DNA of 64,000 nucleotides from Paracoccus haematequi (lineage in GTDB: Bacteria > Pseudomonadota > Alphaproteobacteria > Rhodobacterales > Rhodobacteraceae). A program made the translations under genes and the position numbers. How positions within the stretch are numbered: the first letter of the stretch is position 1; each line of letters opens with the position of its first letter. This document shows, piece by piece, positions 35,111 to 56,405 of the stretch. The notes beneath the pieces were generated by a model that did no database searches, had not been told where the DNA came from, and was given only the letters and a program-made list of their open reading frames with translations. Location: assembly GCA_945881965.1 (NCBI GenBank), contig CAMCVS010000001.1, forward strand, positions 105,402 through 169,401, given 5' to 3'.

Positions 35111-35261
35111 GCGCCCGCCTGTGTTCGGCACGGTGATGGGCCGCACCGCCTGCCCTGTCAAGCCACAGGCCATCAGGCCCAAGTGACCTAAGGGTGCCGG
35201 GTCTGTTGTGGGGCGGATTTCCGGGCTAGGGTAACGACGGATCATCGGGGCCAGACCGGGC

Positions 35262-36377
35262 ATGACACGCCGACCGCTGCACATTGCGTTCTATGCGCCG
35301 CTGAAATCGCCGGACCACCCGGTGCCGTCGGGCGACCGGCTGATGGCGCGGCAATTGCTGGCCTGTCTGCGGGCCGCAGGGCACCGGGTGGACGTGGTGT
35401 CGCATCTGCGGGCCTATCTGGGCCGGTCAGACGATACGGCGGGCTGGCGCGCGTTGCAGGCCGAGGCGGGGCAGGAACGCGCGCGGATCGCGGCGGACTG
35501 GCGCACAGGCGCGCCGGATCTGTGGGTCTGCTATCACCCCTATGTCAAATCACCCGACCTGTTGGGGCCGGACCTGTGCCGCGCCTTTGGCCTGCCATTC
35601 ATCACCATCGAAGCGTCATGGTCCGCGCGGCGCAACCTTGGCATCTGGGTGGACACGCAGGCGGCGGCGCTGGCGGCGGTGACGGGGGCCGCACTGAACC
35701 TGTGCCTGACGGCGCGCGATAGGACGGGACTGGCGCAGGCGGCCCCCGCTGCGCGGCTGTCACGCCTGCCGCCCTTCATCGACACCACGCCGTTTGACGC
35801 CACCCCCGCGCCGGAACCCGGCCATATCGTCACAGTGGCGATGATGCGCGCGGGCGACAAGACGCACAGCTTTGCCCTGATGGCCAAGGCGCTGGCGCGC
35901 TTGCCCGCCGATCTGGACTGGCGGCTGAGCGTGGCGGGGGACGGCCCCGAACGCGACACGGTGCAGGCGTTGTTCGCGCACCTGCCACCGGCGCGGATCG
36001 CGTGGCTGGGGGCGTTGCCGCGCGCGGGCGTGGCGGATTTGCTCGCGCGCGGGCAGGTCTATCTCTGGCCCGGTTGCGGCGAGGCGTATGGGCTGGCCTA
36101 TCTCGAGGCGCAGGCGGCGGGTCTGCCCGTGGTCGCCTGCGATACCGCCGGGGTGCCCGAGGTGGTCAGCGCAGAGGCGGGCAACCGTCTGGTGCCGCTG
36201 GACGCGCAGGCGCTGGCCGATGCAGTGACGGGGATGTTGCGCGACAGATCTGCGCGCGGAGCCACGGCCCGCGCCCATGTCCGCCGCCACCATTCGATCG
36301 GGGCCGCGACGACGCGTCTGGCCGCGGCGATTGATAGCGTGATGGCAGAACGCAGCACAGCGAGGGGCCGCGCATGA
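35262..36377 (+). CDS. Glycosyltransferase family 4
   Basis: This encodes 371 residues. The N-terminus HIAFYAPLKSPDHPVPSGDRLMARQL is a GT4 acceptor domain opening. The C-terminal nucleotide-sugar domain shows VAGDGPERD, LGALPRAGVADLL and the E-x7-E region GCGEAYGLAYLEAQAAGLPVVA. It is a retaining transferase of GT-B fold, cytoplasmic or membrane-associated. It overlaps a polysaccharide deacetylase-like gene by four bases and is divergent from the UDP-sugar dehydrogenase gene. Confidence 0.88.
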   Translation: MTRRPLHIAFYAPLKSPDHPVPSGDRLMARQLLACLRAAGHRVDVVSHLRAYLGRSDDTAGWRALQAEAGQERARIAADWRTGAPDLWVCYHPYVKSPDLLGPDLCRAFGLPFITIEASWSARRNLGIWVDTQAAALAAVTGAALNLCLTARDRTGLAQAAPAARLSRLPPFIDTTPFDATPAPEPGHIVTVAMMRAGDKTHSFALMAKALARLPADLDWRLSVAGDGPERDTVQALFAHLPPARIAWLGALPRAGVADLLARGQVYLWPGCGEAYGLAYLEAQAAGLPVVACDTAGVPEVVSAEAGNRLVPLDAQALADAVTGMLRDRSARGATARAHVRRHHSIGAATTRLAAAIDSVMAERSTARGRA

Positions 36378-37111
36378 CCACAGCCGCAGATGCCGTTCTG
36401 CACGCCCTTGATGCCTGCGCTGCGCAGGGCAAGCCCGCGCAATTGTGGTGGCGCGATGATGATGCAGTGGAGCCAAGCGCACCGCTGGACCGCCTGCTGG
36501 CGCTGTCAGAGGCGTGGCGCATCCCCCTGACGCTGGCCGTGATCCCGCAACCCACCGGCGCGGCGCTGGTAGCGCGGCTGGATCAGGCGGCGCGGATCAC
36601 CGTGGCGCTGCACGGCTGGGCGCATACCGATCATGCGGCGGGTCAGGGCAAGAAGCAGGAACTGGGCCTGCACCGGCCTATTGCCGTCGTGCTGGACGAG
36701 CTGAAAGCAGGGCTGGACAAGCTGCGCGCCCTGCACGGACCCCGCTTTGCGCCCCTGCTGGTGCCGCCGTGGAACCGGATCGCGCCGGAATTGCTGGACC
36801 ATCTGCCGGGGATCAGCATCGCGGCGCTTTCGGTTTTCGGCCCCGCACAGCCTGCCCCCCTGCCCATCATCAACACCCATGTCGATGTCATGGACTGGCG
36901 CGGCACGCGCGGCGGGCGGTCAACCGACGTGCTGTTCACCGATCTGGCCACCGCGCTGACCATCCACCCGTACCAGCCCATCGGCATCCTGACCCATCAT
37001 CTTGTGCATGATATCCATGTCTGGGCTTTTCTTGACGCGCTTTTTGCCCTGACACAGGATCATCCGGGATGTAATTGGGCATCGGTGCAGGACATTTTGT
37101 CACATATCTGA
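36374..37111 (+). CDS. Polysaccharide deacetylase-like protein
   Basis: This encodes 245 residues, with its ATG overlapping the glycosyltransferase stop. The metal-site pattern of NodB-type deacetylases is recognisable: WWRDDDA near residue 27 and HGWAHTDH near residue 77, with LVPPWNR further on and a late HHLVHD. There is no signal peptide, so it would act on a cytoplasmic or lipid-linked glycan rather than on exported polymer. Coupling to the GT4 gene suggests the same pathway. Confidence 0.78.
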   Translation: MTTAADAVLHALDACAAQGKPAQLWWRDDDAVEPSAPLDRLLALSEAWRIPLTLAVIPQPTGAALVARLDQAARITVALHGWAHTDHAAGQGKKQELGLHRPIAVVLDELKAGLDKLRALHGPRFAPLLVPPWNRIAPELLDHLPGISIAALSVFGPAQPAPLPIINTHVDVMDWRGTRGGRSTDVLFTDLATALTIHPYQPIGILTHHLVHDIHVWAFLDALFALTQDHPGCNWASVQDILSHI

Positions 37112-37225
37112 CGTAGCTTCGTGGTTCCCCTGCCGCCGATAGACAGGCCAAACCCGCTCGGCTAGGCTTTGACGCAGATGACGGGAATGGCGATCAACGC
37201 CATCTCGCAACGGGGGACGGACCAG

Positions 37226-39148
37226 ATGACACTGCAAAACCTTGGTCTGACCTCGGCGGCCACGACAGATCTGCTGCGGATCGAGGATCTGCATGTGACA
37301 TTCCCGGTGCCGGGCGGCGAGATCAAGGCGCTGCAAGGCGTCGGCCTGCGGGTGATGCCGGGCAAGATCACGGCGCTGGTGGGCGAATCCGGGTCGGGCA
37401 AATCGGTGCTGGGCCAGGTCGTGCTTGGGTTGCAACCGCAATCGGCGCGGCTGTCGGGGCGGGTGCTGTTTACTGAGCCAGGGGCGACGGCACCCGTCAA
37501 CCTGCTGGACCTGCCGCGCGACGGGCGCAAGATCAGGGCCATTCGTGGCCGCCATATCGGCATGATCTTTCAGGAACCGATGACGTCGTTTTCCGCGCTG
37601 CACACCATCGGCAACCAGATCACCGAGGCGCTGCGCATCCATTCCCCGATGTCACCCAAGGAACAGCGCGAAAAGGCCGAGGCGATGCTGGCGCTGGTGG
37701 GGTTCACCAATCCCGCCCGCGTGTTCGACCTGTATCCGTTCGAATTGTCGGGCGGTATGCGCCAGCGCGCGATGATCGCGATGGCGCTGATCTGTGGCCC
37801 GTCGCTGTTGATCGCGGATGAACCGACCACGGCGCTGGACGTGACGATTCAGGCGCAGATCCTGACCCTGCTGCGCGATCTGCAACAGCGGCTGAACATG
37901 GCCATCCTGCTGATCACGCATGATCTGGGTGTGGTGGCGAATGTCGCCGATGAGGTGGTGGTGATTTACCGTGGCCACATCATGGAGGCGGGGCCGGTCG
38001 ATGCGATCTTTCGCCGTCCCGGTCATGCCTATCTCAAGGGGCTGATGACGGCGATCCCGCATTTCGGCATGGAACGCGGCGCGCGGCTGAAACCGCTGCG
38101 CGAGATCACCATCGACCGCGCGCCGTTGCAGCGCGCCATCGGGGCGGTGGCGGCACCGGCAGCGGCAAACGCGCCCGAGGTGGTGTTGTCGGTGCGCGAC
38201 CTGCGCAAGACGTTCCAGACCCGCAACCAGCAATGGCAGTTCTTTGGCACCGCGCCCACAGTCACCCCGGCGGTGGACGGTGTGGGCTTCGACATCCGGC
38301 GCGGCGAATGTCTGGGGCTGGTGGGCGAAAGCGGCTGCGGCAAGACCACGGTCAGCAAAATCCTGATGCGCGCGGTCACGCCGGATAGCGGCAGCATCAC
38401 CTTTGATGACGGGTCCGGCCCGGTTGATGTGCTGGGGGCCGAAGGGGCCGCCCTGCACCGGTTGCGCACCCGCATCCAGATGGTGTTTCAGGACCCGGTG
38501 TCGTCCCTGTCGCCGCGCATGACGGTGGGCAATATCCTGACCGAACCCTTGGAAATCCACGGCATCGGCACCGCCGAGACGCGCCGCGCCACGGCGGCCG
38601 CGCTGCTGGAGGCGATCGGGCTGAACAAATCCGACCGCAACCGCTATCCGCACAGCTTTTCCGGCGGACAGCGCCAGCGGATCGGCATCGCCCGCGCGCT
38701 GGCGCTTGCCCCCGGTCTGGTGATCTGCGACGAGCCGGTGTCGGCGCTGGACGTGTCGGTGCAGGCGCAAATCCTGAACATGCTCAAGGATTTGCAGCGC
38801 GACATGGGGCTGACATACCTGTTCATCTCGCATAATCTGGCGGTGGTGGATTACATGGCCGACCGGGTGGCGGTGATGTGGGCGGGCAAGATCGTCGAGA
38901 TCGCCCCGCGCGAAGTGATGATGCAGGCCCCGGTGCATCCCTATACCCGTGCGCTTTTGGCCGCCGTGCCGTTTCCCGACCTGAACCGCCCGCTGGATTT
39001 CGCCACGGTGGGGCGGTCCAGTGTGGACGCGGCGTCCGACTGGAAACCTGCGTTCCGCCCCGGCCAGCCGTTGCAACCGCTTGACCTTGGCCAGGGGCAT
39101 TTCGTGCTGGCCAGCCCGATGGCCGATATCGCGGAGATACGCGCATGA
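37226..39148 (+). CDS. Fused family-5 ABC ATPase (DppD-DppF fusion)
   Basis: This encodes 640 residues from ATG 37226, which follows GGGGGA; a TTG at 37169 and ATGs at 37178 and 37187 are alternatives. Two complete ATPase halves are present. The first (about 15-290) has GESGSGKS, LSGGMRQR, LLIADEPTTALD and ITHD. The second (about 325-600) has GESGCGKTT, FSGGQRQR, LVICDEPVSALD and ISHN. All catalytic residues look intact except that the second switch reads SHN, retaining the histidine. It powers the permeases encoded downstream and overlaps the binding-protein gene by four bases. Confidence 0.92.
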   Translation: MTLQNLGLTSAATTDLLRIEDLHVTFPVPGGEIKALQGVGLRVMPGKITALVGESGSGKSVLGQVVLGLQPQSARLSGRVLFTEPGATAPVNLLDLPRDGRKIRAIRGRHIGMIFQEPMTSFSALHTIGNQITEALRIHSPMSPKEQREKAEAMLALVGFTNPARVFDLYPFELSGGMRQRAMIAMALICGPSLLIADEPTTALDVTIQAQILTLLRDLQQRLNMAILLITHDLGVVANVADEVVVIYRGHIMEAGPVDAIFRRPGHAYLKGLMTAIPHFGMERGARLKPLREITIDRAPLQRAIGAVAAPAAANAPEVVLSVRDLRKTFQTRNQQWQFFGTAPTVTPAVDGVGFDIRRGECLGLVGESGCGKTTVSKILMRAVTPDSGSITFDDGSGPVDVLGAEGAALHRLRTRIQMVFQDPVSSLSPRMTVGNILTEPLEIHGIGTAETRRATAAALLEAIGLNKSDRNRYPHSFSGGQRQRIGIARALALAPGLVICDEPVSALDVSVQAQILNMLKDLQRDMGLTYLFISHNLAVVDYMADRVAVMWAGKIVEIAPREVMMQAPVHPYTRALLAAVPFPDLNRPLDFATVGRSSVDAASDWKPAFRPGQPLQPLDLGQGHFVLASPMADIAEIRA

Positions 39149-41016
39149 CCGGACGTTTCACGATCACCCGGCGCGCGGCGCTGGCGGGGATGCTGGGCGG
39201 GCTGGCCCTGCCTGCGCTGGCGCGCGCGCAGACGGCGACGGGCCTGCCCAGCAATCCGCGCGTCATCGACCTGCCCGCTTTGGGGCGCGAAACCGGGCGG
39301 CAGGGCGGCACGGTGCGGATGCTGATCGGCGGGCAGCGCGATGTGCGGTTTATCCCGATCAACAGCTATGCCCGGCTGGTGGGCTATGGCCCCGACCTGC
39401 AACTGCGGCCCGATATCCTTGCAGGCTATGAGGTGACGGGCGACCGCAGCTATACCTTCCACCTGCGCGCAGGCCATCGCTGGTCGGACGGCACGCCGTT
39501 CACCACCGAAGACTTCCGCTATTGCTGGGAGGACGTGATCAACAACAAAAAGCTCTACAAATCCGGCCCGCCGCCGGAATTGCTGGCAGGTGGCGCACCG
39601 CCCGTGTTCACGGTGATTGACGATGTGACAGTGCGCTTTGATTTCCCCGCACCGATGCCGGGGTTTCTGGCCGGTCTGGCCGCGCCGCTGCCCACGGTGC
39701 TGTTCATGCCGTCGGCCTATCTGCGCCAGTTCCACATCAAATATAACGACGAGGCGTCGCTGGCAAAACTGTCGGAACAGGAACGCGTCGATGACTGGCG
39801 CCGCCTGCATCTGAAGATGTCGCGGTCGATCCGGCCCGAAAACCCCGACCTGCCCACGCTGGAAGCGTGGTATCCGCGCACCAAACCACCCGCCGAGCAA
39901 TTCATCTTTGAGCGCAACCCGTATTTCCATCGCGTCGATCAGGCGGGCACGCAATTGCCTTATGTGGACCGGATCGTGTTGAACGTGTCGTCATCGGAAA
40001 TCATCACCGCCAAGACGGCAACGGGCGAAAGCGACCTGCAATCCAACGGCATCGCGTTTCCCGACTATACCCTGCTGAAAAAGGCGGAAAAGCTGCACCC
40101 GCTGCGCGTCGCGCTCTGGCGGAAATCGCAGGGGTCGGCGGTGGCGCTGCTTCCGAACCTGAATTGCGCCGACACCGTCTGGCGCGACCTGTTCCGCGAT
40201 GTGCGGATGCGGCGCGCGCTGTCGGTGGCGATCAACCGCGAGGAAATCAACAAGGCGCTGTTCTTTGGTCTGGGCACCGAGGCCGCAGATACCGTGTTGC
40301 CGGAAAGCCCGCTGTATCGCCCCGAATATGCCCGCGCTTGGGTGCAATATGACCCCGACATGGCCAATGGGCTCTTGGACGATCTGGGGCTGGGCGAACG
40401 CGGACCGGGCAAGATCCGGGTGCTGCCCGACGGGCGGCAGGCGGGGATCGTGGTGGAAACGGCCGGTGAAAGTGCCTTGGAAACAGATGTGCTGTCCTTG
40501 ATCCGCGATCATTACCGCGAGGTCGGGCTGGCCTTGTATATCCGCAGCTCGCAGCGCGACATTTTCCGCAGTCGCGCCCTGTCGGGGCAGGTGCAGATGT
40601 CGGTCTGGCAGGGGCTGGACAACGGGGTGCCGGACCAGCAAGTGTCGCCCGCGCCGCTGGCCCCGACCTCGGGCGATCAGTTGCAATGGCCGCTCTGGGG
40701 CAGTTGGTATGCCGCAGGCGGCGCGGCAGGCGAAGGCCCCGACCTGCCCGAGGCCAAGATGCTGCTGGATCTGGTCGCGCAATGGGACCGGTCGGATACG
40801 CCCGCCGCGCGCACCGCGATCTGGCATCAGATATTGCAGTTGCGCGCGGATCAGGTGTTTTCCATCGGCACGGTCAGCGGCGCGCTGCAACCCATCGTGC
40901 GGTCGGCGCGGCTGCGCAATGTGCCCGAACAGGGGCTGTATGGGTTCGAACCCACCAGCCAATTGGGGGCCTACCTTCCCGACACGTTCTTTTATGCCGA
41001 AGGTCCAAGCACATGA
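39145..41016 (+). CDS. Family-5 ABC substrate-binding protein, long oligosaccharide-type
   Basis: This encodes 623 residues, about 100 longer than typical dipeptide-binding proteins. The N-terminus has a Tat-like twin arginine (TITRRAALAGMLGGLALPALARA). Family blocks are YTFHLRAGHRWSDGTPFTTEDF, RRALSVAINREEINKALF and the long-form insertion between about 200 and 270 (LPTLEAWYPRTKPPAEQF). Long members with these permeases often import plant or microbial oligosaccharides. Its location inside an exopolysaccharide locus supports a glycan fragment as ligand. It is coupled by 4-base overlaps on both sides. Confidence 0.88.
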   Translation: MTGRFTITRRAALAGMLGGLALPALARAQTATGLPSNPRVIDLPALGRETGRQGGTVRMLIGGQRDVRFIPINSYARLVGYGPDLQLRPDILAGYEVTGDRSYTFHLRAGHRWSDGTPFTTEDFRYCWEDVINNKKLYKSGPPPELLAGGAPPVFTVIDDVTVRFDFPAPMPGFLAGLAAPLPTVLFMPSAYLRQFHIKYNDEASLAKLSEQERVDDWRRLHLKMSRSIRPENPDLPTLEAWYPRTKPPAEQFIFERNPYFHRVDQAGTQLPYVDRIVLNVSSSEIITAKTATGESDLQSNGIAFPDYTLLKKAEKLHPLRVALWRKSQGSAVALLPNLNCADTVWRDLFRDVRMRRALSVAINREEINKALFFGLGTEAADTVLPESPLYRPEYARAWVQYDPDMANGLLDDLGLGERGPGKIRVLPDGRQAGIVVETAGESALETDVLSLIRDHYREVGLALYIRSSQRDIFRSRALSGQVQMSVWQGLDNGVPDQQVSPAPLAPTSGDQLQWPLWGSWYAAGGAAGEGPDLPEAKMLLDLVAQWDRSDTPAARTAIWHQILQLRADQVFSIGTVSGALQPIVRSARLRNVPEQGLYGFEPTSQLGAYLPDTFFYAEGPST

Positions 41017-42011
41017 CCGGCTATATCCTGCGCCGTATCCTGACCATGATCCCGACGCTGTTTCTGGTGTCGCTGTTGGTGTTCCTGATCATCGAACTGC
41101 CCCCTGGCGACTATTTCGAAAGCTATGTCGCGGAATTGAAAGCCTTGGGCGAAGAGGCCGATCTGGCCGAGATCGAGATTCTGCGTGACCGCTATGGCTT
41201 TGATCAGCCGCAGTATATCCGTTACCTGCGCTGGGTCGGCGGCATGTTCGTAGGCGATTTCGGATATAGTTTCGAATATCGCCTGCCGGTGAACGAGGTC
41301 GTGGGCGACCGGCTGTGGCTGACCATCGTGCTGTCTTTCATCACCATCATTTTCACCTGGGCGCTGGCCTTTCCCATCGGCATGTATTCTGCCACCCACC
41401 AGTATAGCTGGGGCGATTACGGCGTCACGTTTCTGGGGCTGATCGGGGTGGCGATCCCGAATTTCATGCTGGCGCTGATCATGATGTATTTCGCCAATAT
41501 CTGGTTCGGCCTGTCCATCGGTAACCTGATGGACCGCGAATACCTGAACCAGCCGATGAGCTGGGACAAGGCGATGTCGATCCTGTCGCATATCTGGATC
41601 CCCGTGGTGATCATCGGCACCGCAGGCACCGCAGGGATGGTGCGGCGGCTGCGCGCCAACCTGCTGGACGAGTTGCAGAAACAATACGTCACCACCGCGC
41701 GCGCCAAGGGGCTGGAACCGGGCCGCGTGCTGCGGAAATACCCGCTGCGCAATGCGCTGAACTTTTTCATCTCAGACATTGGCTCGATCCTGCCTGCAAT
41801 GATCTCGGGCGCCGAGGTGACGGCCATCGTTCTGTCCCTTGAAACCACCGGGCCGATGCTGATCCGGGCGCTGCAAAGTCAGGACATGTATCTTGCGGGG
41901 TCGTTCCTGATGTTTCTGGCATTCCTGACGGTGATAGGTGTGCTGATTTCCGATATCGCGCTGGCGCTTCTGGACCCGCGCATCCGGCTGGGCAAGGGAA
42001 GCGCGAAATGA
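41013..42011 (+). CDS. ABC permease, DppB type (oligosaccharide subgroup)
   Basis: This encodes 332 residues with six helices. It starts MTGYILRRILTMIPTLFLVS and carries VFLIIELPPGDYFESYVAELK, a variant of the usual NLxPGDP segment, where PPGDY is characteristic of the oligosaccharide-importing subgroup as I know it. The EAA loop is TARAKGLEPGRVLRKYPLRNAL. Start and stop overlap the neighbouring genes by four bases. Confidence 0.9.
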   Translation: MTGYILRRILTMIPTLFLVSLLVFLIIELPPGDYFESYVAELKALGEEADLAEIEILRDRYGFDQPQYIRYLRWVGGMFVGDFGYSFEYRLPVNEVVGDRLWLTIVLSFITIIFTWALAFPIGMYSATHQYSWGDYGVTFLGLIGVAIPNFMLALIMMYFANIWFGLSIGNLMDREYLNQPMSWDKAMSILSHIWIPVVIIGTAGTAGMVRRLRANLLDELQKQYVTTARAKGLEPGRVLRKYPLRNALNFFISDIGSILPAMISGAEVTAIVLSLETTGPMLIRALQSQDMYLAGSFLMFLAFLTVIGVLISDIALALLDPRIRLGKGSAK

Positions 42012-43189
42012 CCGTCACCGCACAGACCCCGAACGGATTGCCCGAACCCGGCGCGCCCTTGGGGCATTTCATCTCGGATCGTGCCTTTGATCCCAACGCG
42101 GGCGACGGTCGTTCCGGTGCGATGGCCGAGGCCTCGCAGCGCCAGTTGATGTGGTGGCAATTCCGCCGTCACAAGGTGGCGGTGGCGTCGCTGGTGTTTC
42201 TGCTGGTGCTGTATGCCAGCATCCTGATCACCGAATTTCTGGCACCTTATCATCAGGATAGCCGCAACCTTGATTTCATCTATGCCCCGCCGCAGGCCAT
42301 TCACCTGTTCCATGACGGGCGCTTTGTCGGGCCATTCGTCTATGGCCGCAGCCAGTCGCTGGACATGGACACGCTGCGCCGAGTTTATACGCCGACGGAC
42401 GAGGTGCAAAAGCTGCGGTTTTTCTGCCGGGGCGACGATTACATGTTCTGGGGGCTGATACCCGCCGACCGCCATCTGGTCTGCCCTGCGGAAAACGGCC
42501 AGTTCTTTCTCTTGGGCACCGACCGGCTGGGCCGCGATGTGCTGTCGCGCACGATCTATGGCGCGCGCATCTCGCTGACCATCGGCATCCTTGGCGTGAC
42601 CATGAGCTTCGTGCTGGGCATCGTCATCGGCGGGCTGGCGGGCTATCACGGCGGCTGGTTCGACGCGGTGACGCAGCGCGTGACCGAGGTGCTGCAATCC
42701 ATCCCGTCGATCCCGCTGTGGATGGCGCTGGCCGCGATCATTCCCATCACCTGGAGCCCGCTGTTGGTTTACGTCGGCATCACTGTCATTCTGGGCCTCT
42801 TGGACTGGACTGGGCTGGCGCGCGCGGTGCGGTCGAAACTCTTGTCGCTCCGCGAAGAGGATTACGTGCTTGCGGCCCGGCTGATGGGGGCGGGGTCGGC
42901 GCGCATCATCGGGCGGCACATGGTGCCGGGGTTCATGTCGCACCTGATCGCCACCGCAACGCTGACCATTCCGGGCATGATCCTTGGCGAAACTGCGCTG
43001 TCCTTCCTGGGCATCGGCCTGCGCCCGCCGATCACCAGCTGGGGCATCTTGCTGACCGAGGCGCGCAGCGTGAACATCATCGCGCTTTATCCGTGGCTGA
43101 TGTTCCCGGTCATTCCGGTGATCCTTGTGGTGCTGGCCTTTAATTTTCTGGGTGACGGGTTACGCGATGCCGCTGATCCGTATAAGTGA
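42008..43189 (+). CDS. ABC permease, DppC type with large periplasmic insertion
   Basis: This encodes 393 residues, roughly 100 more than common DppC proteins. The extra sequence is a periplasmic segment between helix 1 and the usual LGTDRLGRDVLSRTIYGARIS (about residues 75-175), containing YAPPQAIHLFHDGRFVGPFV, FFCRGDDYMFWG and HLVCPAENGQFF with two cysteines. The EAA loop is AARLMGAGSARIIGRHMVPGFM. This long form accompanies the long binding proteins of the oligosaccharide group. It is the last gene of the operon. Confidence 0.9.
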   Translation: MTVTAQTPNGLPEPGAPLGHFISDRAFDPNAGDGRSGAMAEASQRQLMWWQFRRHKVAVASLVFLLVLYASILITEFLAPYHQDSRNLDFIYAPPQAIHLFHDGRFVGPFVYGRSQSLDMDTLRRVYTPTDEVQKLRFFCRGDDYMFWGLIPADRHLVCPAENGQFFLLGTDRLGRDVLSRTIYGARISLTIGILGVTMSFVLGIVIGGLAGYHGGWFDAVTQRVTEVLQSIPSIPLWMALAAIIPITWSPLLVYVGITVILGLLDWTGLARAVRSKLLSLREEDYVLAARLMGAGSARIIGRHMVPGFMSHLIATATLTIPGMILGETALSFLGIGLRPPITSWGILLTEARSVNIIALYPWLMFPVIPVILVVLAFNFLGDGLRDAADPYK

Positions 43190-43282: not shown

Positions 43283-44512
43283 ATGAAAGACCGCCTCAAA
43301 AACGCCCGTGTGCTGATGTATAGCCACGACACCTTTGGCCTTGGCCACCTGCGCCGCTGCCGCACCATCGCCCACGCGCTGGTGCAGGATTATCGCGGCA
43401 TGATGGTGCTGATCATCTCGGGGTCACAGATCGCGGGCGCGTTCGATTACCGGTCACGCGTCGATTTCGTGAAAATTCCCAGCGTGATCAAGCTGCGCAA
43501 TGGCGAATACACGTCCTTGTCGGAACATATCGACGTGCAGGACACCATCGACATGCGCCGTTCGATCATCCGCCACACCGCCGAAAGTTTCAAACCCGAC
43601 ATCTTCATCGTGGACAAGGAACCGATGGGCCTGCGCGGCGAGGTCGAGGACACGCTCGCCTATCTCAAGGATCAGGGCACCACGCTGATCCTCGGGCTGC
43701 GCGATGTGATGGACGCGCCGCGCCTGTTGGACGCCGAATGGCGGCGCAACAACGTGCTGGCCAAGATCGACCGCTATTACGATCAGATCTGGGTCTATGG
43801 CCCGCCCGATTTCCACGATCCGCTGGCCGGGCTGGACGTGCCGCCGGGTGTGACCGAACGGATGAATTTCGTGGGGTTTCTGGAACGCAGCGCGCATGAA
43901 ACCAAGGTGTCGCTCAATCAGCCGGACGGGTCTTATATTCTGGTCACAACGGGGGGCGGCGGCGATGGGGCCGACCTGATCGAGGATGTGCTGAACGCCT
44001 ATCTGCATGATCCGGCGCTGACGGAACGCGCGCTGATCGTGCTGGGCCCTTACATGGCCGCCGACCGCCGCGCCGAATTCATGGCGATGGGCCAGCGCAT
44101 CCCCCATGTCGAGGTGATCGAGTTTGATACCCGCATGGAGGAACTCATCGCCGGGTCCAAGGCCGTGGTTGCGATGGGCGGCTACAACACGTTCTGCGAA
44201 ATCCTGTCCTTTGACAAACCGGCGCTGATCGTGCCGCGCACCACCCCGCGCGAGGAACAATTGCTGCGCGCGACACGGGCCACCGAATTGGGTATGATCG
44301 ACATGCTGCTGCCCGAACATGCCAGCGACCCCGCCCGCATGGCGGCGGCCTTGCGCGCGCTGGCGCATCGCAACCGGCCCTCGCAGGGGTGGCCGGGGCT
44401 GCGGCTGGACGGGTTGGCGCGGATTTCGGGGCTGATCGGCGAGGATTTGCGTCAGCGCAGCGCGATGCTGGACATGCCCCCCGTGCGCCATGTCATCGGG
44501 ACCGCGAAGTGA
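43283..44512 (+). CDS. GT-B-fold glycosyltransferase (GT28/MurG-like)
   Basis: This encodes 409 residues. The N-terminus VLMYSHDTFGLGHLRRCRTIAHAL has the glycine-histidine acceptor loop of MurG-like enzymes, and the C-terminal domain shows VTTGGGGDGADLIEDVL and VVAMGGYNTFCEILSFDKPALIVPR, the nucleotide-sugar-binding region. There is no signal peptide. It is the first gene of three overlapping glycosyltransferase genes, with a 93-base non-coding stretch before it that should hold the promoter. Confidence 0.85.
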   Translation: MKDRLKNARVLMYSHDTFGLGHLRRCRTIAHALVQDYRGMMVLIISGSQIAGAFDYRSRVDFVKIPSVIKLRNGEYTSLSEHIDVQDTIDMRRSIIRHTAESFKPDIFIVDKEPMGLRGEVEDTLAYLKDQGTTLILGLRDVMDAPRLLDAEWRRNNVLAKIDRYYDQIWVYGPPDFHDPLAGLDVPPGVTERMNFVGFLERSAHETKVSLNQPDGSYILVTTGGGGDGADLIEDVLNAYLHDPALTERALIVLGPYMAADRRAEFMAMGQRIPHVEVIEFDTRMEELIAGSKAVVAMGGYNTFCEILSFDKPALIVPRTTPREEQLLRATRATELGMIDMLLPEHASDPARMAAALRALAHRNRPSQGWPGLRLDGLARISGLIGEDLRQRSAMLDMPPVRHVIGTAK

Positions 44513-45750
44513 CACGACCGCGACTTGTGGTAGTGGTCAAGGGCTATCCCCGGCTGTCCGAGACATTCATCGCGCAGGAATTGCGCGGGCTGGAACTGGC
44601 GGGGTTCGATCTGGTGATCGTGTCGCTGCGCAGGCCCACGGACACCAAACGCCACGCGGTGCATGACGAGATCACGGCCCCGGTGATGTATCTGCCGGAA
44701 TACCTGCGCGATGACCCTTTGCGCGTGGCGCGGGGGTTGTGGGTGGCGCTGCGGCATCGCGGGTTCTGGCGCCTGTTGCCGGGATTTCTGCGCGATCTGT
44801 GGCGCGACCCCAGCCGCAACCGGGTGCGCCGTCTGGGTCAGGCGGCGGTGCTGGTGGCGGAATGGCCCAAAGGTGGCCATTGGCTGCATGCGCATTTCAT
44901 CCATACGCCTGCGTCTGTCGCGGATTATGCGGCGCGGATCAGGGGCATGGGATGGTCGGTGTCGGCCCATGCCAAGGATATCTGGACCTCGCCGGATTGG
45001 GACTTGCAGGGCAAACTGGCGCGCGCGTCATGGGCGGTGACCTGCACCGCCACGGGGCATAGCCACCTGCAAGCCTTGGCCGCTGATGCCGCCCGCGTCC
45101 ATCTCAGTTATCATGGCCTGAACCTTGACCGCTTTCCGCCCTTTGACGCCCCGCGCGCCCTGCGCGATGGCCGCGACCCCGCCGACCCGGTGCAGATCGT
45201 CAGCGTCGGCCGCGCTGTGCCGAAAAAGGGCTATGACGTGCTGTTGCGCGCGCTGGCGGCCCTGCCCAATGATCTGCATTGGCGGTTCACCCATCTGGGC
45301 GGCGGCGGTGAATTGCAGATGCTGCGGATGCTGGCCGAGACGCTGGGTATCGCCGGGCGCTGTGACTGGGTCGGCGCGGTGGACCAGATACAGGTGATTG
45401 CGGCCTACCGCCGCGCGGATATCTTTGCGCTGGCGTGTCGCATTACGCCCGACGGTGATCGCGATGGCCTGCCCAATGTCATCGTCGAGGCATCCAGCCA
45501 GCAGTTGGCCTGCGTCGCCACCGATATCTCGGGCATCCCGGAGCTGATCACCGATGGCGTCACCGGCTGGCTGGCCCCGCCTGAGGATGCGGCGGGCTTT
45601 GCCGCCGCGCTGGCGGCAGCGATCCGCGACCCGGACGCGCGCGCGGCGCGCGGCGCGGCGGCGGATCATCAGGTGCGCGCCCATCTGGATTACCACGCCA
45701 GCATCGCCGCTCTGACCCGTCTGTTCGACCCTGACGGCATCCGGTCATGA
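44509..45750 (+). CDS. Glycosyltransferase family 4
   Basis: This encodes 413 residues from a GTG overlapping the previous stop (GTGA). The opening VVVVKGYPRLSETFIAQELRGLELAG is the exopolysaccharide GT4 type (colanic acid WcaL-like). The donor-binding half has VSVGRAVPKKGYDVLLRAL, LGGGGELQMLRML and the E-x7-E-like region DGDRDGLPNVIVEASS. The enzyme adds a sugar to a lipid-linked repeat unit in the cytoplasm. It overlaps the next gene by four bases. Confidence 0.88.
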   Translation: MTRPRLVVVVKGYPRLSETFIAQELRGLELAGFDLVIVSLRRPTDTKRHAVHDEITAPVMYLPEYLRDDPLRVARGLWVALRHRGFWRLLPGFLRDLWRDPSRNRVRRLGQAAVLVAEWPKGGHWLHAHFIHTPASVADYAARIRGMGWSVSAHAKDIWTSPDWDLQGKLARASWAVTCTATGHSHLQALAADAARVHLSYHGLNLDRFPPFDAPRALRDGRDPADPVQIVSVGRAVPKKGYDVLLRALAALPNDLHWRFTHLGGGGELQMLRMLAETLGIAGRCDWVGAVDQIQVIAAYRRADIFALACRITPDGDRDGLPNVIVEASSQQLACVATDISGIPELITDGVTGWLAPPEDAAGFAAALAAAIRDPDARAARGAAADHQVRAHLDYHASIAALTRLFDPDGIRS

Positions 45751-46907
45751 CGACATGCGTTTTCTTTTATGTCCAGCACCTGCTGGGCATCGGCCATCTG
45801 GCCCGCGCCAGCCGGATCGCATCCGCCGTGCAGGCGCGCGGCATGGCGGTGACGCTGGTAACTGGCGGCTTGCCCGTCGCGGGGTTTCCGCCCACTGGGC
45901 TGGATCATGTCGCGCTGCCCCCCTTGGCGGTCAGCGATGGCGATTTCGCGGGGCTGGTGGATGGCACCGGCAATCCGGCAGACGCCGCCTATCTGGACGC
46001 GCGCCGCGCGGCGCTGCTGGCCGCGTTTGACCGGCTGCGCCCCGATGTGGTGATCACCGAGGCGTTCCCCTTTGGCCGCCGTCAGGTGCGGTTCGAACTC
46101 TTGCCGCTGCTGGCGGCGATTGCGGTGGCGCGCCCGCGCCCGATCCTGTTGGCCTCTGTGCGCGACATCCTGCAACAACGCGCCAAGCCGGGGCGCGACG
46201 CGGACACCGTCGATCTGGTGCGCGCGCATTACGATCGTGTGCTGGTGCATGGCGACCCGGCCTTTGCCGCGCTTGGCGACACATTCCCGCTGGCGGATCA
46301 GATCGCGGACAAGGTGATCCATACCGGGCTGGTGTGCCCGCCGGTGCCGGTTCCCGCGCCGGAACGGTTCGACATCGTTGTGTCCGCAGGCGGCGGCGCG
46401 GTCGGGGCGGGGCTGGTGCGCGCGGCGCTGGCGGCGGTGGCCTTGCGCCCCGCGTTGGACCGTGTGCTGGTGATCACCGGGCCGAACCTGCCGCAGGCGG
46501 ACTATGACGCGCTGGCCGCGCTGGCCCCGCCTGCCGTCACGCTCTGCCGGTTCCGCAGCGATTTCGCAGCACTGCTGGCCTCTGCGCGGCTGTCGGTATC
46601 GCAGGCGGGCTATAACACCGTGGCCGACATAGTGCAGGCCGGGTGCCGCGCGGTGCTGGTGCCGTTTGCCGCAGGCGGCGAGACGGAACAGACCGACCGC
46701 GCGACGCGCCTGCATCAGGCGGGCCGCGCGGTGATGCTGGCGGAGGCTGACCTGAGCGGCCCCGCGATGGCCACGGCCATTGACCGCGCATTGGCGCAGG
46801 ACATCACGGCGGCGGGTCGCCTTGCACAGACCGATGGCGCAGCGCGCGTGGCAGACATCATCGCAGACCTGATGGCCGCGCGCGCGGATCAGACCGAAAT
46901 CACCTGA
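45747..46907 (+). CDS. GT-B-fold glycosyltransferase (GT28/MurG-like)
   Basis: This encodes 386 residues. Its N-terminus VFFYVQHLLGIGHLARASRIASAV matches the same acceptor-loop pattern as the 43283 product, and the donor site is VSAGGGAVGAGLVRAAL plus VSQAGYNTVADIVQAGCRAVLVPF. It is therefore a paralogue or partner of the first gene in the trio, and the two may work sequentially on one glycan. Its last 19 bases overlap the 3' end of the opposing MBL gene. Confidence 0.85.
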   Translation: MTTCVFFYVQHLLGIGHLARASRIASAVQARGMAVTLVTGGLPVAGFPPTGLDHVALPPLAVSDGDFAGLVDGTGNPADAAYLDARRAALLAAFDRLRPDVVITEAFPFGRRQVRFELLPLLAAIAVARPRPILLASVRDILQQRAKPGRDADTVDLVRAHYDRVLVHGDPAFAALGDTFPLADQIADKVIHTGLVCPPVPVPAPERFDIVVSAGGGAVGAGLVRAALAAVALRPALDRVLVITGPNLPQADYDALAALAPPAVTLCRFRSDFAALLASARLSVSQAGYNTVADIVQAGCRAVLVPFAAGGETEQTDRATRLHQAGRAVMLAEADLSGPAMATAIDRALAQDITAAGRLAQTDGAARVADIIADLMAARADQTEIT

Positions 46908-47719
46908 AAATCCCGGCCACAGAATGCGCCGGGGAACAGCGCCTGTGCGTCCTGTTCGATCCGGGTCAGTTCGTCATCGGTGCGGAACGTCGCGTGGTGG
47001 ATCATGCCCACACGCGCCGCCCCCGCCGCCTGCGCCAGCCGCACCCCATGCTGCCAGGTCGAATGGCCGAAATGGGCGAACGTCTTGAATTCCTCATCCG
47101 AGAACGTGGCATCATACAGGAACAAATCCGCGCCCCGGATCAGGTCCAACACGCCTGGGTCCAGCACATCGGGGGTGTGGCAGGTGTCGAACACCATCGC
47201 CACCACCCGACCGCCAAATTCGATCCGGTATCCCACCGCACCACCGGGATGATCCAGCCGCGCGGTGTGCATCACCACGCCGTCACCGGGCATCAGCACC
47301 GCGCCGGGCACGAAATCCCGCATCGTCACCTTGGCGCGGAACACCTCGGGACCCACCGGAAAGAACGGCCGCGCCATGAAATCGCTGATCATCGTCGCTG
47401 TAGTGGCGTCGGACTGATGGCCCGACCAGATGTCGATCACCATGTCCGGCATGAAGAACGGGATAAAGAACGGCAGGCCAAGGATGTGATCATAATGGCA
47501 ATGCGAAAAGAACAGGTTCAGGTGCCGCGCGCCTTGTTCCAGCAGCGCCTTGCCCGCCATGCCGATGCCAGAGCCCGCATCGAACAGCAGCACCTGATCG
47601 CCGCAGCGCACCTCGATGCAGACCGTGTTGCTGCCAAATTCGGCAAAACACGGGCTGGCTACCGGCAGGCTACCGCGCGCGCCCCAGATTTTCACGTCGA
47701 AACGTGGTGTCACGCTCAT
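46889..47719 (-). CDS. MBL-fold metallo-hydrolase
   Basis: This encodes 276 residues. The first metal motif is SHCHYDH near residue 73, a distal His is in LDHPGGAVGYRI, the bridging Asp is in VFDTCHTPD, and a late HHATFR completes the set. The start VKIWGARGSLPVASP resembles the phosphodiesterase/ribonuclease Z-like branch, and such proteins often hydrolyse phosphodiesters, including cyclic nucleotides. It is the third gene of the operon with the degenerate ABC protein and the cNMP-binding protein, 22 bases after the latter. Confidence 0.82.
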   Translation of the reverse strand: MSVTPRFDVKIWGARGSLPVASPCFAEFGSNTVCIEVRCGDQVLLFDAGSGIGMAGKALLEQGARHLNLFFSHCHYDHILGLPFFIPFFMPDMVIDIWSGHQSDATTATMISDFMARPFFPVGPEVFRAKVTMRDFVPGAVLMPGDGVVMHTARLDHPGGAVGYRIEFGGRVVAMVFDTCHTPDVLDPGVLDLIRGADLFLYDATFSDEEFKTFAHFGHSTWQHGVRLAQAAGAARVGMIHHATFRTDDELTRIEQDAQALFPGAFCGRDFQVISV

Positions 47720-47741: not shown

Positions 47742-48254
47742 TCAATGCAGCGCTTGCTCTTTGCTGCGGGCGGCGGTCAGTTCCGCCGTGGTCCGGATCA
47801 GACGATCCGCAAGCACCCGCATCACCTCAAGCGTCATTTCCGGAAAATCCAGCAACAGTTTCTTGAAGTTTTCTTTACTGATCTGCAGCGCTTCGACCGT
47901 GGTCACCGCGCGAACCGTCGCGGTGCGGGCCACATCGCAGAGAATGGCGATTTCACCGACGATGGCGTTCTCGGATATTTCGGCCACCTCGATTTCGCCG
48001 TTGGGCGTGTTCAGCAGCACCTTGGCGCGGCCTTCGAGGATGACATAGGCGGCGTTGCCGTCGTCGCCCTGCCGGAACAGCACGTCCCCCGCGCGGAACG
48101 CCACCCGTTCGGACGTGAAGGCCAGCAGTTTCAGTTTCGCAGGCGCGATGCCCGCAAACATCGGCACCTGCCGCAACATCCTGACTTCGTCGTTCAACAG
48201 CACGTTCTGACCTTTCCGTTGTCCGTGGTCATTGTTCGCCAGTCTATTCTGCAT
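47742..48254 (-). CDS. Cyclic-nucleotide-binding domain protein (no DNA-binding domain)
   Basis: This encodes 170 residues from ATG 48254 with AGGA upstream; a GTG at 48275 is too close to its AAGG. It is a single cNMP-binding domain (about residues 24-150): RAGDVLFRQGDDGNAAYVILEG and the phosphate-binding cassette VGEIAILCDVARTATV with its arginine. No helix-turn-helix follows, so it is a regulatory subunit rather than a Crp-type activator. It lies between the degenerate ABC gene (43 bases upstream) and the MBL gene, which suggests that cAMP or cGMP modulates that membrane protein. Confidence 0.87.
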   Translation of the reverse strand: MQNRLANNDHGQRKGQNVLLNDEVRMLRQVPMFAGIAPAKLKLLAFTSERVAFRAGDVLFRQGDDGNAAYVILEGRAKVLLNTPNGEIEVAEISENAIVGEIAILCDVARTATVRAVTTVEALQISKENFKKLLLDFPEMTLEVMRVLADRLIRTTAELTAARSKEQALH

Positions 48255-48297
48255 CGCCGGTGTCCTGCGCGCCACGGCCTTGTGACCCGCTGTGAGA

Positions 48298-51009
48298 TTA
48301 TGCCGCGACCATGTCCCTGAAGATACCGTTCTTTTCCATCAGCGCCGCCGGCGTGTCGTTTTCGACGATGTTGCCGTCGCTGAGCACCGCAATCCGGTCA
48401 AAATGCGCGGCCAACGCGGGTGTGGCCACGACCCAGACGATGCCGGGCGGCGCGGCCCGCGCGCGCAGCCCCGCCAGCACAGCCGTCAGGATTCGCTCCT
48501 GGGATTTGGTGTCCAGCGCCGACAGCGGACGGTTGAACACGAAATACGCCGACTGCCGCAGCAGCGCGCGCGCCAGCGTCAGCTTTTGCCGCTGCGCCAC
48601 GCTGATCCTCCGCCCGCCGCTGCCGACATCGAACATCAACCCGATGGCAAGGATATCGTCATAAAGCCCTTCCTCGTGCAGCAACCCGGTCAGCACATCG
48701 CGGACCTGATCGGCTCCATCGCGGAATTTCTGGCTGATCCGCCCGAACAGCACATTGTCCAGCAACGTGCCGGTATCCATGAATTGCGCCGGGTCATAGA
48801 TTTCGATGCCGCCGCGCATATCCTCGGGCATGGTATCGTGGAACGCCTGCCGAAAGGTCACAATCCGCGCCTTCAGATCGGCATCCAGCAGACCGAAACG
48901 ATAGCGCGGCTCGATATATTCGAATGCCAGCCGGATCAGCGGCACCCGGTCATCATCGGTCATCGCTGTCCCCGGTTTTTCCAGCCGTTGCAGCAACAGC
49001 TTGTAGGCCGGGATGTCATCGGCGGACATGAAACTGAGTTGCCGGAAGAACGGATGATCGGGGGGCAGGTCCGCGAACAGGCCAATGACGTTGGCGGCGA
49101 TTTCGCGACCCATCTCGGCAAAGGTGTCGCATAGGCCCTGGTCCTTCAGCAGACCAAAGAAGAACGGGTTGGCATTGATCTCTTCGGCTACCAGATCATG
49201 GCGCCGCGAATGGCCGAACAGCAGGTTTTCGATCACCGTGGCCTCGGCATTATAGGCACCGGGTTCGAACGGCACGATCAGGCCGGTCAGGTCGCGTTCC
49301 TGCAATTCCTGCCGCAGCCGTTCGCGCAGCGCCACCAGTTGCACCGCCAACGCCGGGTGATTGGCCTGTTCCACGCAGGATCGCAGCGCCAGTTCCTGCA
49401 TGTCCTGCCGCAACTGCACGGATTCCAGCACGTCCAGCACATGGGTCAGCAAGGCCGCCTCGCCGTCCAGCCCAAGGGCAGCATAGTCGATCCAGCCCTG
49501 TTCGGGGTCAACATCGGGGTTGCCGGACAGCCGCGATTCGATCTGCTGGAACCGGCGCGCAGGTGTCAGGGCGGCGGCATCGGCGCGCGGCTGCGGCGCG
49601 TTTTTCAGGCCATACAGCAGGTTGTCCAGCACTGACCCGGAAAAGAAAAAGCCGTCGCTGCCCGCATAGGTGATGGACCGCCCCGTGACCGCCTCGGGCA
49701 AAGTCAGCAGATTGTCGGGACCGACCGTCACCTTGCCACCCGAAGGCCAGACCTGCCGCGCCAGCACTTCGGCAAGGGTATCGCTGCCCGATCCGGCGAT
49801 GCCGACCACGGCCACCGCCTCGCCGGGGTTGACCGCGAAATTCACCCGTTCCAGCGCCACACCGCCGCCATCATCCACCACGCGCAGGTTGATCGCCGCC
49901 AGCGGCGGCTCCAGCGCGGCAGGCACCGCAGGCGTCACGGTCTGGATCGCCGGGTCCAGCATGTCATCGACGGCGAATTGCACGATCACCTGCTGGTATT
50001 TCACCTGCACATCCTGCCGGTTCTGGTCCCAGTCGATCAGTTCTTTCAGAGGCCCCGGCAAATCCTTGTAGGCCCCGATCACGGCCACCAACTGCCCGAT
50101 ATCCAGCCGCCCGTTCAGCGCCAGAAACCCGCCCACGCTGTAGAACAGGAACGGCGTCAGCGAGGCGAGGATGTTGTTGATGAATTTGACCAGAAATTTC
50201 CACTGATAGATGTCGAACCGGATCTTGAAGATGCGCCCCAGCCGCGCCGCGATATCGGCGCGTTCGTAATTCGAGGTGTCATAGGCGTGGATGGTGCCGA
50301 TACCGTCGATGATCTCGCTGACGCGGCCCGCAAGCTGCCGCGCGGTCAATTGCCGTTCGCGGCCCAGCACCAAGAGCCGCCGCCGCATCCGCGGGATCAC
50401 TAGCACCTGCACCGACACCAGCGCGGCGGTAATGAACCCCAACGGCACGCTTTGCAGGAAAATGAACCCCAGCGCCGTCAGCGCCTGCCCCCCCAACAGC
50501 GCGGGCGTGACAAAGGCGTCACCGGCGAACCCGCCCAGCGGTTCCACCTCGTCCTTGACCATGCTGGCCACCTCGGCACCCTTCAGCCGCTTGAAGGTCT
50601 GCGGCGGAAACCGCAGCACATTGTCCACCAGCGTGAACCGCACCCGGCGCAACAGCCGCTCGCCCAACTTGCCCTTGTAGGTGTTGATGTAGAACTTGAA
50701 GAGGCCGTTGATGATCACCAGCGCCAGAAACACCGCGCTGAGCGCGAACAGCATGTCGATCCGGTCAAGCGCCACGCCCGGAAACAGCACCACCTCGCCA
50801 CCGGGCCACGGCAGCACCAGCCGCCCGAACACCTGCGTGGCGTCCGGCGTTTCGAACCCGCCGCCCTGAATGGGTCCGTTGACGATGTTCTTGGGCAGGC
50901 TGAACGCCATGAAATACGGGACCATCGACAGCGCGACGATGGCCAGAATCCACAACTGCTGCATGCGGGTATAGCGCCAGATGTAGCGTGAGATATTGCT
51001 GTCAAGCAT
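48298..51009 (-). CDS. Degenerate ABC-exporter-like protein with enlarged nucleotide-binding domain
   Basis: This encodes 903 residues. Residues 1-330 form an exporter-type membrane domain (helices near 18-38, 88-108, 165-205, 275-300; SEIIDGIGTIHAYDTSNYERAD split across the cytoplasmic loop). The ATPase region starts near 365. Its Walker A reads GIAGSGSDT (403-411) with no lysine, the signature is ISVAQ (802-806) in place of LSGGQ, Walker B ends VFNRP (824-828) in place of DEP, and the switch His is lost (VVATPA). Between Walker A and signature lies about 390 residues, far more than the usual 100, with three copies of a DNxLxG element (VLDNLLYG 460-467, VIENLLFG 592-599, LLDNVLFG 749-756). 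ATP hydrolysis looks unlikely. It leads the operon with the cNMP and MBL genes. Confidence 0.85.
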   Translation of the reverse strand: MLDSNISRYIWRYTRMQQLWILAIVALSMVPYFMAFSLPKNIVNGPIQGGGFETPDATQVFGRLVLPWPGGEVVLFPGVALDRIDMLFALSAVFLALVIINGLFKFYINTYKGKLGERLLRRVRFTLVDNVLRFPPQTFKRLKGAEVASMVKDEVEPLGGFAGDAFVTPALLGGQALTALGFIFLQSVPLGFITAALVSVQVLVIPRMRRRLLVLGRERQLTARQLAGRVSEIIDGIGTIHAYDTSNYERADIAARLGRIFKIRFDIYQWKFLVKFINNILASLTPFLFYSVGGFLALNGRLDIGQLVAVIGAYKDLPGPLKELIDWDQNRQDVQVKYQQVIVQFAVDDMLDPAIQTVTPAVPAALEPPLAAINLRVVDDGGGVALERVNFAVNPGEAVAVVGIAGSGSDTLAEVLARQVWPSGGKVTVGPDNLLTLPEAVTGRSITYAGSDGFFFSGSVLDNLLYGLKNAPQPRADAAALTPARRFQQIESRLSGNPDVDPEQGWIDYAALGLDGEAALLTHVLDVLESVQLRQDMQELALRSCVEQANHPALAVQLVALRERLRQELQERDLTGLIVPFEPGAYNAEATVIENLLFGHSRRHDLVAEEINANPFFFGLLKDQGLCDTFAEMGREIAANVIGLFADLPPDHPFFRQLSFMSADDIPAYKLLLQRLEKPGTAMTDDDRVPLIRLAFEYIEPRYRFGLLDADLKARIVTFRQAFHDTMPEDMRGGIEIYDPAQFMDTGTLLDNVLFGRISQKFRDGADQVRDVLTGLLHEEGLYDDILAIGLMFDVGSGGRRISVAQRQKLTLARALLRQSAYFVFNRPLSALDTKSQERILTAVLAGLRARAAPPGIVWVVATPALAAHFDRIAVLSDGNIVENDTPAALMEKNGIFRDMVAA

Positions 51010-56364: not shown

Positions 56365-56405
56365 ATGTCTCTGAAAAGGGTCACCGGACCGGATGCTTCG
56401 CGCGA

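Follow-up and report, generated by a model that had tools for sequence, protein, structure and literature searches.

An exporter-like ABC protein with a degenerate ATPase site, a tripled Q-loop/helical segment and a cyclic-nucleotide-binding neighbour in Paracoccus haematequi

The 64,000-nucleotide stretch of Paracoccus haematequi contig CAMCVS010000001.1 analysed here (the window) encodes a 903-residue protein with the layout of an ATP-binding cassette (ABC) exporter, whose nucleotide-binding domain (NBD) has lost its catalytic residues and carries three copies of the Q-loop/helical segment, and whose gene lies beside one for a protein predicted to bind cyclic nucleoside monophosphates (cNMP). 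This pseudo-ABC protein represents a widespread family, present in many Alphaproteobacteria and extending to Moritella through a cNMP-fused branch, in which the NBD is enlarged, dead in nearly all members and tied to a cyclic-nucleotide sensor by gene order and fusion, while the membrane domain is strongly constrained. An earlier note, made from the window's letters alone, had suggested a regulatory role instead of pumping, which is the likely reading as it follows from the catalytic loss; it did not mention the cNMP-binding neighbour, which is the best clue to function. Whether the protein acts as a cyclic-nucleotide-controlled pseudo-transporter of envelope glycan, the explanation proposed below, is in our judgement an evenly balanced question.

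Architecture of the pseudo-ABC protein

The gene and the parts of its product, in window coordinates, are as follows.

48298..51009, minus strand: pseudo-ABC exporter gene (903 residues; PF00664 E 9e-20, PF00005 E 7e-10)
49975..50988, minus strand: transmembrane domain, residues 8-345, the protein's best-conserved part (model and conservation)
49777..49803, minus strand: lost Walker A, GIAGSGSDT, residues 403-411 (sequence and family alignment)
49288..49692, minus strand: repeat unit 1, residues 440-574, Q-loop segment with DNLLYG (profile comparison and model)
48808..49287, minus strand: repeat unit 2, residues 575-734, with ENLLFG (profile comparison and model)
48607..48807, minus strand: repeat unit 3, residues 735-801, with DNVLFG (profile comparison and model)
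48592..48606, minus strand: degenerate signature ISVAQ, residues 802-806, Ser and Gln retained and both Gly gone (sequence and family alignment)
48526..48546, minus strand: degenerate Walker B, residues 822-828, ending in FNRP, with Asp replaced by Asn and the catalytic Glu by Arg (sequence and family alignment)

The open reading frame starts with ATG and contains no internal stop. As in type IV ABC exporters, a PF00664 membrane domain is followed by a PF00005-type NBD; the PF00005 match covers only profile positions 1-88 of 137, and the protein scores 169.5 bits against the MsbA equivalog TIGR02203, below its cut-off of 602. The predicted structure, with a predicted local distance difference test score (pLDDT) of 87 and the same fold as the earlier model that it replaced (A1, 25 rows, pLDDT 71), is that of an exporter with a complete NBD, onto which the ComA NBD superposes over all of its 239 residues at 1.9 Å; this NBD holds about 300 residues beyond an ordinary one, and the structural match with the top Z-score (29.6) is SUR2A. 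A frameshift or sequencing error, raised as a caveat in the earlier note, does not explain these features, and neither does a pseudogene or an assembly error: the gene is intact, its layout is common to 25 aligned relatives, 114 of the 120 best proteins listed (window protein included) are 900-928 residues long, the other six being shorter (673-886), and the protein is conserved.

ABC exporters are taken to be ATP-driven machines whose NBD is their most conserved part, and the single ordinary exporter used as a control agrees (31 sequences of similar divergence; NBD 0.84, membrane domain 0.76). The window family (32 sequences) reverses this pattern, its membrane domain being conserved at 0.87 versus 0.72 for the NBD.

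Degenerate catalytic site

Both the sequence and the alignment bear out the initial observation that the window protein is devoid of the Walker A Lys, the LSGGQ signature, the Walker B DEP and the switch His. GIAGSGSDT starts at residue 403, ISVAQ at 802 and VFNRP at 824, which gives a Walker A-to-signature distance of 399 residues, close to the roughly 390 first estimated; the switch position (residues 860-863) reads VVAT, without histidine. Of the motif set of a functional ABC ATPase, the Lys, both signature Gly residues, the Asp, the Glu and the His are missing, with signature Ser803 and Gln806 and D-loop Asp833 persisting as relics.

In a set of 221 proteins that includes the window protein, 33 have the Walker A Lys, two the Walker B Asp and 35 the catalytic Glu. 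When eight catalytic features, a set that leaves out the switch His, were scored in 321 sequences (these 221 proteins, 80 loci constituting the best 80 of 549 matches with flanks of up to 6 kb, and 20 further loci), none of the sequences had all eight, four had six and 186 had one, and the Lys was retained together with a D-E Walker B in three (P0146, P0177 and L111). The alignment of the 221 proteins rules out a loss confined to the window copy and, together with the larger set, marks catalytic loss as a family trait that is graded across relatives; the loss of catalytic residues stands for the window protein, and a loss that is total throughout the family is rejected. Relatives with intact Walker motifs, which the earlier note had named as evidence that would contradict it, do exist in part, in the form of the three Lys and D-E keepers, but none has the full scored set, and such partly intact motifs point to an active ancestor and not to an active protein here.

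The residues that replaced the catalytic ones are themselves conserved. Of the 221 proteins, 219 have Asn at position 826 and 217 have Asp or Glu at position 410; moreover, positions 409 and 827 are charge-coupled, a basic residue being paired with an acid in 39 of 39 cases and a neutral one with a basic residue in 181 of 182. With replacement residues fixed and charges coupled, the aligned dead-site positions are not in simple drift, and on the tree described below the 409/827 charge swap is mostly one branch change.

Tripled Q-loop/helical segment

The element that the earlier note had seen three times (VLDNLLYG at residue 460, VIENLLFG at 592 and LLDNVLFG at 749) had been attributed to internal amplification of the Q-loop/helical region, a reading with which unit profiles, matches to an ordinary exporter and model spacing all agree. 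Compared profile to profile, units 1 and 2 match with E 3e-6, units 1 and 3 with E 2e-7 and units 2 and 3 with E 5e-14, the similarity between the last two copies extending further back (E 8e-18); 17 of 18 control segment pairs gave E 0.037 or worse, the matching T1-T2 pair having been built overlapping. Each of the three units can also be matched to the region between Q-loop and signature in an ordinary exporter encoded by the same genome (E 4e-8, 3e-4 and 1e-5, respectively), versus E 0.15 or worse in nine control comparisons, and in the model strand and helix are spaced by 14 residues in each copy (446/460, 578/592 and 735/749). Chance or low-complexity repeats are ruled out by the profile E-values relative to the control pairs, and the profiles identify the three elements as marks of a genuine triplication of the Q-loop/helical segment.

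The Asn of the element is conserved in 218, 221 and 221 of the 221 proteins for copies 1, 2 and 3, respectively, and in all 109 full-length members of the distant branch in which the cNMP domain is fused; the Asn residues of all three (D/E)NxLxG elements are present together in 318 of the 321 sequences. Arg562 and Arg720 are equivalent in repeat position, preceding the Asn by 33 and 32 residues, and are invariant in both the 221-protein and the fused sets. In a midpoint-rooted tree of 80 membrane-domain sequences (26 of 105 unfused proteins without and 22 of 28 with a basic residue 409, 12 of 109 fused proteins and the 20 further loci), the triplication is present in every branch. Since these branches include those that keep the Lys, the triplication probably predates the loss of catalysis.

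Putative cyclic-nucleotide-binding partner

The gene next to the pseudo-ABC gene is the following.

47742..48275, minus strand: stand-alone cNMP-binding protein with an intact GEIAILCDVARTATV phosphate-binding cassette (PF00027 E 3e-22, its sole Pfam match)

No DNA-binding domain was found in this protein by Pfam. In all 80 loci the ABC gene is followed by a cNMP homologue in the same orientation, with a median gap between matches of about 70 bases and a gap of at most 400 bases in 78; the other two (L028 and L078) probably reflect split matches, given longer ABC matches there. Of the 80 copies, one cannot be read at the cassette, and the other 79 all have its G-E...R-T residues intact. Twenty further chosen loci (19 distant, one close) had the cNMP gene adjacent in ten cases, fused C-terminally in six and absent in four, and six more had it adjacent in five and fused in one; all nine fused proteins tested against Pfam cut-offs pass for both membrane and cNMP domains. 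By comparison, no cNMP gene was found beside the one ordinary exporter used as a control in 30 loci with flanks of about 1.5 kb. cNMP domains and class III cyclases each number four in the organism's own genome, with two of each inside the window. Gene context, fusion and conserved ligand residues make a link to cyclic AMP (cAMP) likely.

Gene cluster

The pseudo-ABC gene closes a cluster that spans 28.6 to 51 kb of the window and contains these further genes.

28621..29970, plus strand: second class III cyclase, in tandem with the next (genome search for cyclases)
30010..31776, plus strand: class III cyclase with a 2Fe-2S domain and, as read from the sequence, a hydrophobic N-terminal part, in a CyaC-like layout (PF00211, PF00111)
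31722..33281, minus strand: calcineurin-like metallophosphoesterase (domain search)
33788..35284, minus strand: nucleotide-sugar dehydrogenase (TIGR03026 above cut-off)
35262..36377, plus strand: glycosyltransferase (PF13692)
36374..37111, plus strand: polysaccharide-deacetylase-like protein, named after annotated homologues, with no Pfam match
37169..43189, plus strand: Opp-type (oligopeptide) ABC importer genes (substrate-binding and permease domains)
43283..44512, plus strand: glycosyltransferase, GT28-like (PF04101)
44389..45750, plus strand: glycosyltransferase (PF00534; nearest NCBIfam EpsE, under cut-off)
45747..46907, plus strand: glycosyltransferase, GT28-like (PF04101)
46889..47719, minus strand: metallo-beta-lactamase (MBL)-fold hydrolase, possible cyclic-nucleotide phosphodiesterase (PF12706; NF041851 E 6e-10, under cut-off)

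By sequence, the four solved relatives of the MBL-fold hydrolase are RNase Z / ELAC1 enzymes. Next to the cluster, the genes at 53618-56421 are presumably MdoG-like and OpgC-like genes for osmoregulated periplasmic glucan. Much of the cluster set recurs in Rhizobium etli, R. lentis and Shinella, partly in Phyllobacterium, and also around fused members in Sulfitobacter and Azospirillum. Of the 80 loci, 64-66 have a match to each of the three glycosyltransferase queries, 59 to the MBL gene and 44 to OppC, counts in which related glycosyltransferases may cross-match and which the short flanks depress. No other exporter-type membrane protein was noticed in the open reading frame lists of the cluster.

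Proposed mechanism and alternatives

The dead NBD and the cNMP partner together suggest control by a cyclic nucleotide, and four features suggest the handling of a glycolipid or envelope glycan: a fold of the exporter type, a constrained membrane domain, four glycosyltransferases and no other exporter-type membrane protein noticed among the cluster's reading frames. In the resulting scheme, the redox-type cyclase of the cluster would, as its CyaC-like layout suggests, produce cAMP, which would bind to the cNMP protein at its intact cassette. The pseudo-NBD would then receive the cNMP protein, as adjacency and fusion suggest, probably at the tripled helical arm, although this site is a guess. 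The docked complex would open, close or assemble the membrane domain, which would pass on or organise a glycolipid made by the four glycosyltransferases, and the MBL-fold enzyme and the metallophosphoesterase might end the signal. The pseudo-NBD is thus predicted to relay ligand binding by the cNMP domain to the membrane domain in place of ATP hydrolysis. More tentatively, and with clearly less confidence than in the pseudo-transporter itself, the family could be an ABC exporter lineage running on a new fuel: with the ATP site extinct, the cNMP domain would provide the nucleotide input, the tripled arm would serve as dock and lever, and the membrane domain would be a cAMP-gated, ATP-independent flippase for lipid-linked envelope glycan. 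Should control by cAMP be confirmed, such an ABC fold would directly link a second messenger to surface glycan and offer a natural test of the role of the helical subdomain without ATP.

Several observations weigh against a cyclic-nucleotide-controlled pseudo-transporter. The four most divergent loci (L125, L126, L127 and L129) have no adjacent cNMP gene. Cassettes are altered elsewhere, with Glu changed to Asp in three of six fused proteins and missing in the adjacent protein of L117, so that the cNMP domain of some relatives may bind another ligand or merely hold structure. A cyclase homologue is seen in only 12 of the 80 loci, a figure that the short flanks undercount, and the nucleotide could be cGMP. 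ATP may be bound without hydrolysis, some branches retaining the Walker A Lys, and active partners might exist in R. etli and beside L118, as described below.

The main rival is a pure scaffold, which we regard as doubtful, though it is the strongest of the alternatives: nothing would be moved, and the protein would be an SUR-like platform, assembled upon cAMP binding by the cNMP protein, that keeps the glycosyltransferases at the membrane. Against it speak the conservation of the membrane domain, which exceeds that of the NBD, and the existence of relatives reduced to the membrane domain; both suggest that the membrane part has a job of its own.

It is unlikely that ATP is still used, either by an altered pocket that binds it or by an intact half-exporter partner that provides one composite site, as in TmrAB, TM287/288 and BmrCD. 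The basic residue 409 in 39 of 221 proteins, the swapping of the 409/827 charges in register, which argues for a constrained relic pocket, and the Lys and D-E of P0146, P0177 and L111 are consistent with such use. So are two gene neighbourhoods: in R. etli, a gene annotated as a multidrug ABC ATP-binding/permease protein lies about 15 kb off, and at L118 (5276-8313) an ABC transporter of type I secretion, itself intact, and an HlyD-type fusion protein are encoded directly upstream of the fused pseudo-ABC. A partner gene might sit anywhere in the genome. Yet Walker residues and signature are both degenerate, which leaves neither composite site complete, and no intact half-exporter recurs within the cluster in the seven annotated regions read. 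Furthermore, the charge swap is largely a single branch event, and in the fused branch, whose site residues differ from the new ones of the unfused proteins, Lys409 is found in none of 109 members and Gln806 has become Phe in 108.

A Pycsar-like anti-phage system, in which a cyclase would signal to a cyclic-nucleotide-binding membrane effector, is very improbable. PADLOC matched the cNMP protein to PycTIR (E 5e-17) and the cyclases to PycC models (E 5e-22 and 3e-23), and one relative adjoins an Apyc1-like phosphodiesterase; however, the matched domains are shared with many proteins, the PADLOC matches are confined to cyclase and cNMP protein with no effector domain found, and the neighbours in distant Alphaproteobacteria are glycosyltransferases, a nucleotide-sugar dehydrogenase and Opp genes. 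Least credible of all is a functionless gene in decay, as which the lost catalytic motifs might be read, in view of a membrane domain and repeat residues strongly conserved over hundreds of relatives and of the fixed Asn826 and acidic residue 410.

Comparison with known systems

Relative to type IV exporters such as MsbA, Sav1866, PCAT1, ComA and TmrAB, the window protein has about 300 extra residues with two additional Q-loop/helical copies, lacks the Walker A Lys, signature Gly, Walker B Asp-Glu and switch His, and shows the reversed conservation pattern described above. ABC proteins that are dead or half dead have precedents, as do ABC regulators such as SUR. The protein resembles SUR1/SUR2 of the ATP-sensitive potassium (K-ATP) channel in its ABC fold and putative regulatory, non-pumping role, but SUR keeps its nucleotide-binding sites and has neither a tripled segment nor a cNMP domain. 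With TmrAB, TM287/288 and BmrCD it shares degenerate catalytic residues, but these retain one complete site in NBDs of ordinary length, whereas the window protein keeps none. In domain family and cassette, the domain found beside or within the pseudo-ABC proteins agrees with those of the CRP family, PKA-R, HCN and SthK. The difference lies in its company: here the domain either stands alone or has a dead ABC exporter as its fusion partner, in place of a channel, kinase or DNA-binding domain.

The layout of the cyclase at 30010-31776, with membrane anchor, 2Fe-2S domain and cyclase, resembles that of Sinorhizobium meliloti CyaC (PMC10463352). In S. meliloti, cyaC lies beside the TetR-type gene cycR and CyaC reportedly acts with Clr and CycR, and the term "ABC transporter" is absent from the main text of that paper (PMC10463352). 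Being TetR-type, CycR is ruled out as a counterpart of the window's cNMP protein. The S. meliloti msbA2 operon was likewise rejected as the orthologous locus, since as far as can be told it occupies a different place on pSymB: msbA2 is SMb21191, beside SMb21188-21190 (PMC3687685, PMC5596199), and the match to the window protein in strain 2011 (841727-844435), which also has a cNMP gene alongside, is nearly 100 kb away from the position of a fragment in SMb21188 (938297, strain Rm1021).

Searches of the open-access PMC literature, which omits most subscription journals, brought up neither a description of the family nor a name for it, and no exporter family that combines a tripled helical segment with a fixed dead site and a cNMP partner. 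Our results suggest that the database label "ABC transporter ATP-binding protein", borne by many family entries, is misleading.

Distribution and divergent relatives

The protein searches scored only the candidates that shared most words with the query and listed 120 proteins each; because their totals (1052, 6575 and 686) may include ordinary ABC proteins, they were not used as family sizes. Relatives retrieved as proteins number 340, and at least 120 cNMP-fused relatives were listed, including that of the gammaproteobacterium Moritella. The close form is scarce in the organism's own bacterial family, occurring in two of 149 genomes at E 1e-250, its own counted. A family member is found in 56 of 196 genomes at the order level (E 1e-60) and in 32 of 398 at the phylum level. 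The long rows at the order level correspond to open frames of at least 1000 residues in 88 of 92 cases, fusion being verified only for the named proteins.

A third branch, which is very divergent, comprises loci L125, L126, L127 and L129; its members retain all three elements but neither the catalytic motifs nor a cNMP gene alongside. At L111 (5817-7849), an ion-channel gene and an Apyc1-like phosphodiesterase (PF23023 E 1e-28) lie upstream of a cNMP-fused relative in which Walker A (GSSDSGKS) and the DE of Walker B are still present.

The relatives that consist of the membrane domain only, with frames of about 380-490 residues and no NBD, match the family profile with E 1e-85 to 1e-104; 19 rows were found, of which nine were inspected: L135 (7540-8781, minus strand), L136 (6531-7730, plus strand), L137 (7001-8200, plus strand), L138 (1-1149, on a 3.2-kb contig) and L179-L183. 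For the full-length protein, a copper role has nothing beyond hints in its favour. Besides L136, the source of the query, seven of the other eight inspected loci have a multicopper-oxidase homologue nearby, partial and weaker in four, with CopB near three and a copper-type P-ATPase near four; a second copper hint comes from L185 (G481), a full-length member with an adjacent cNMP gene that adjoins a copper-type P-ATPase homologue.

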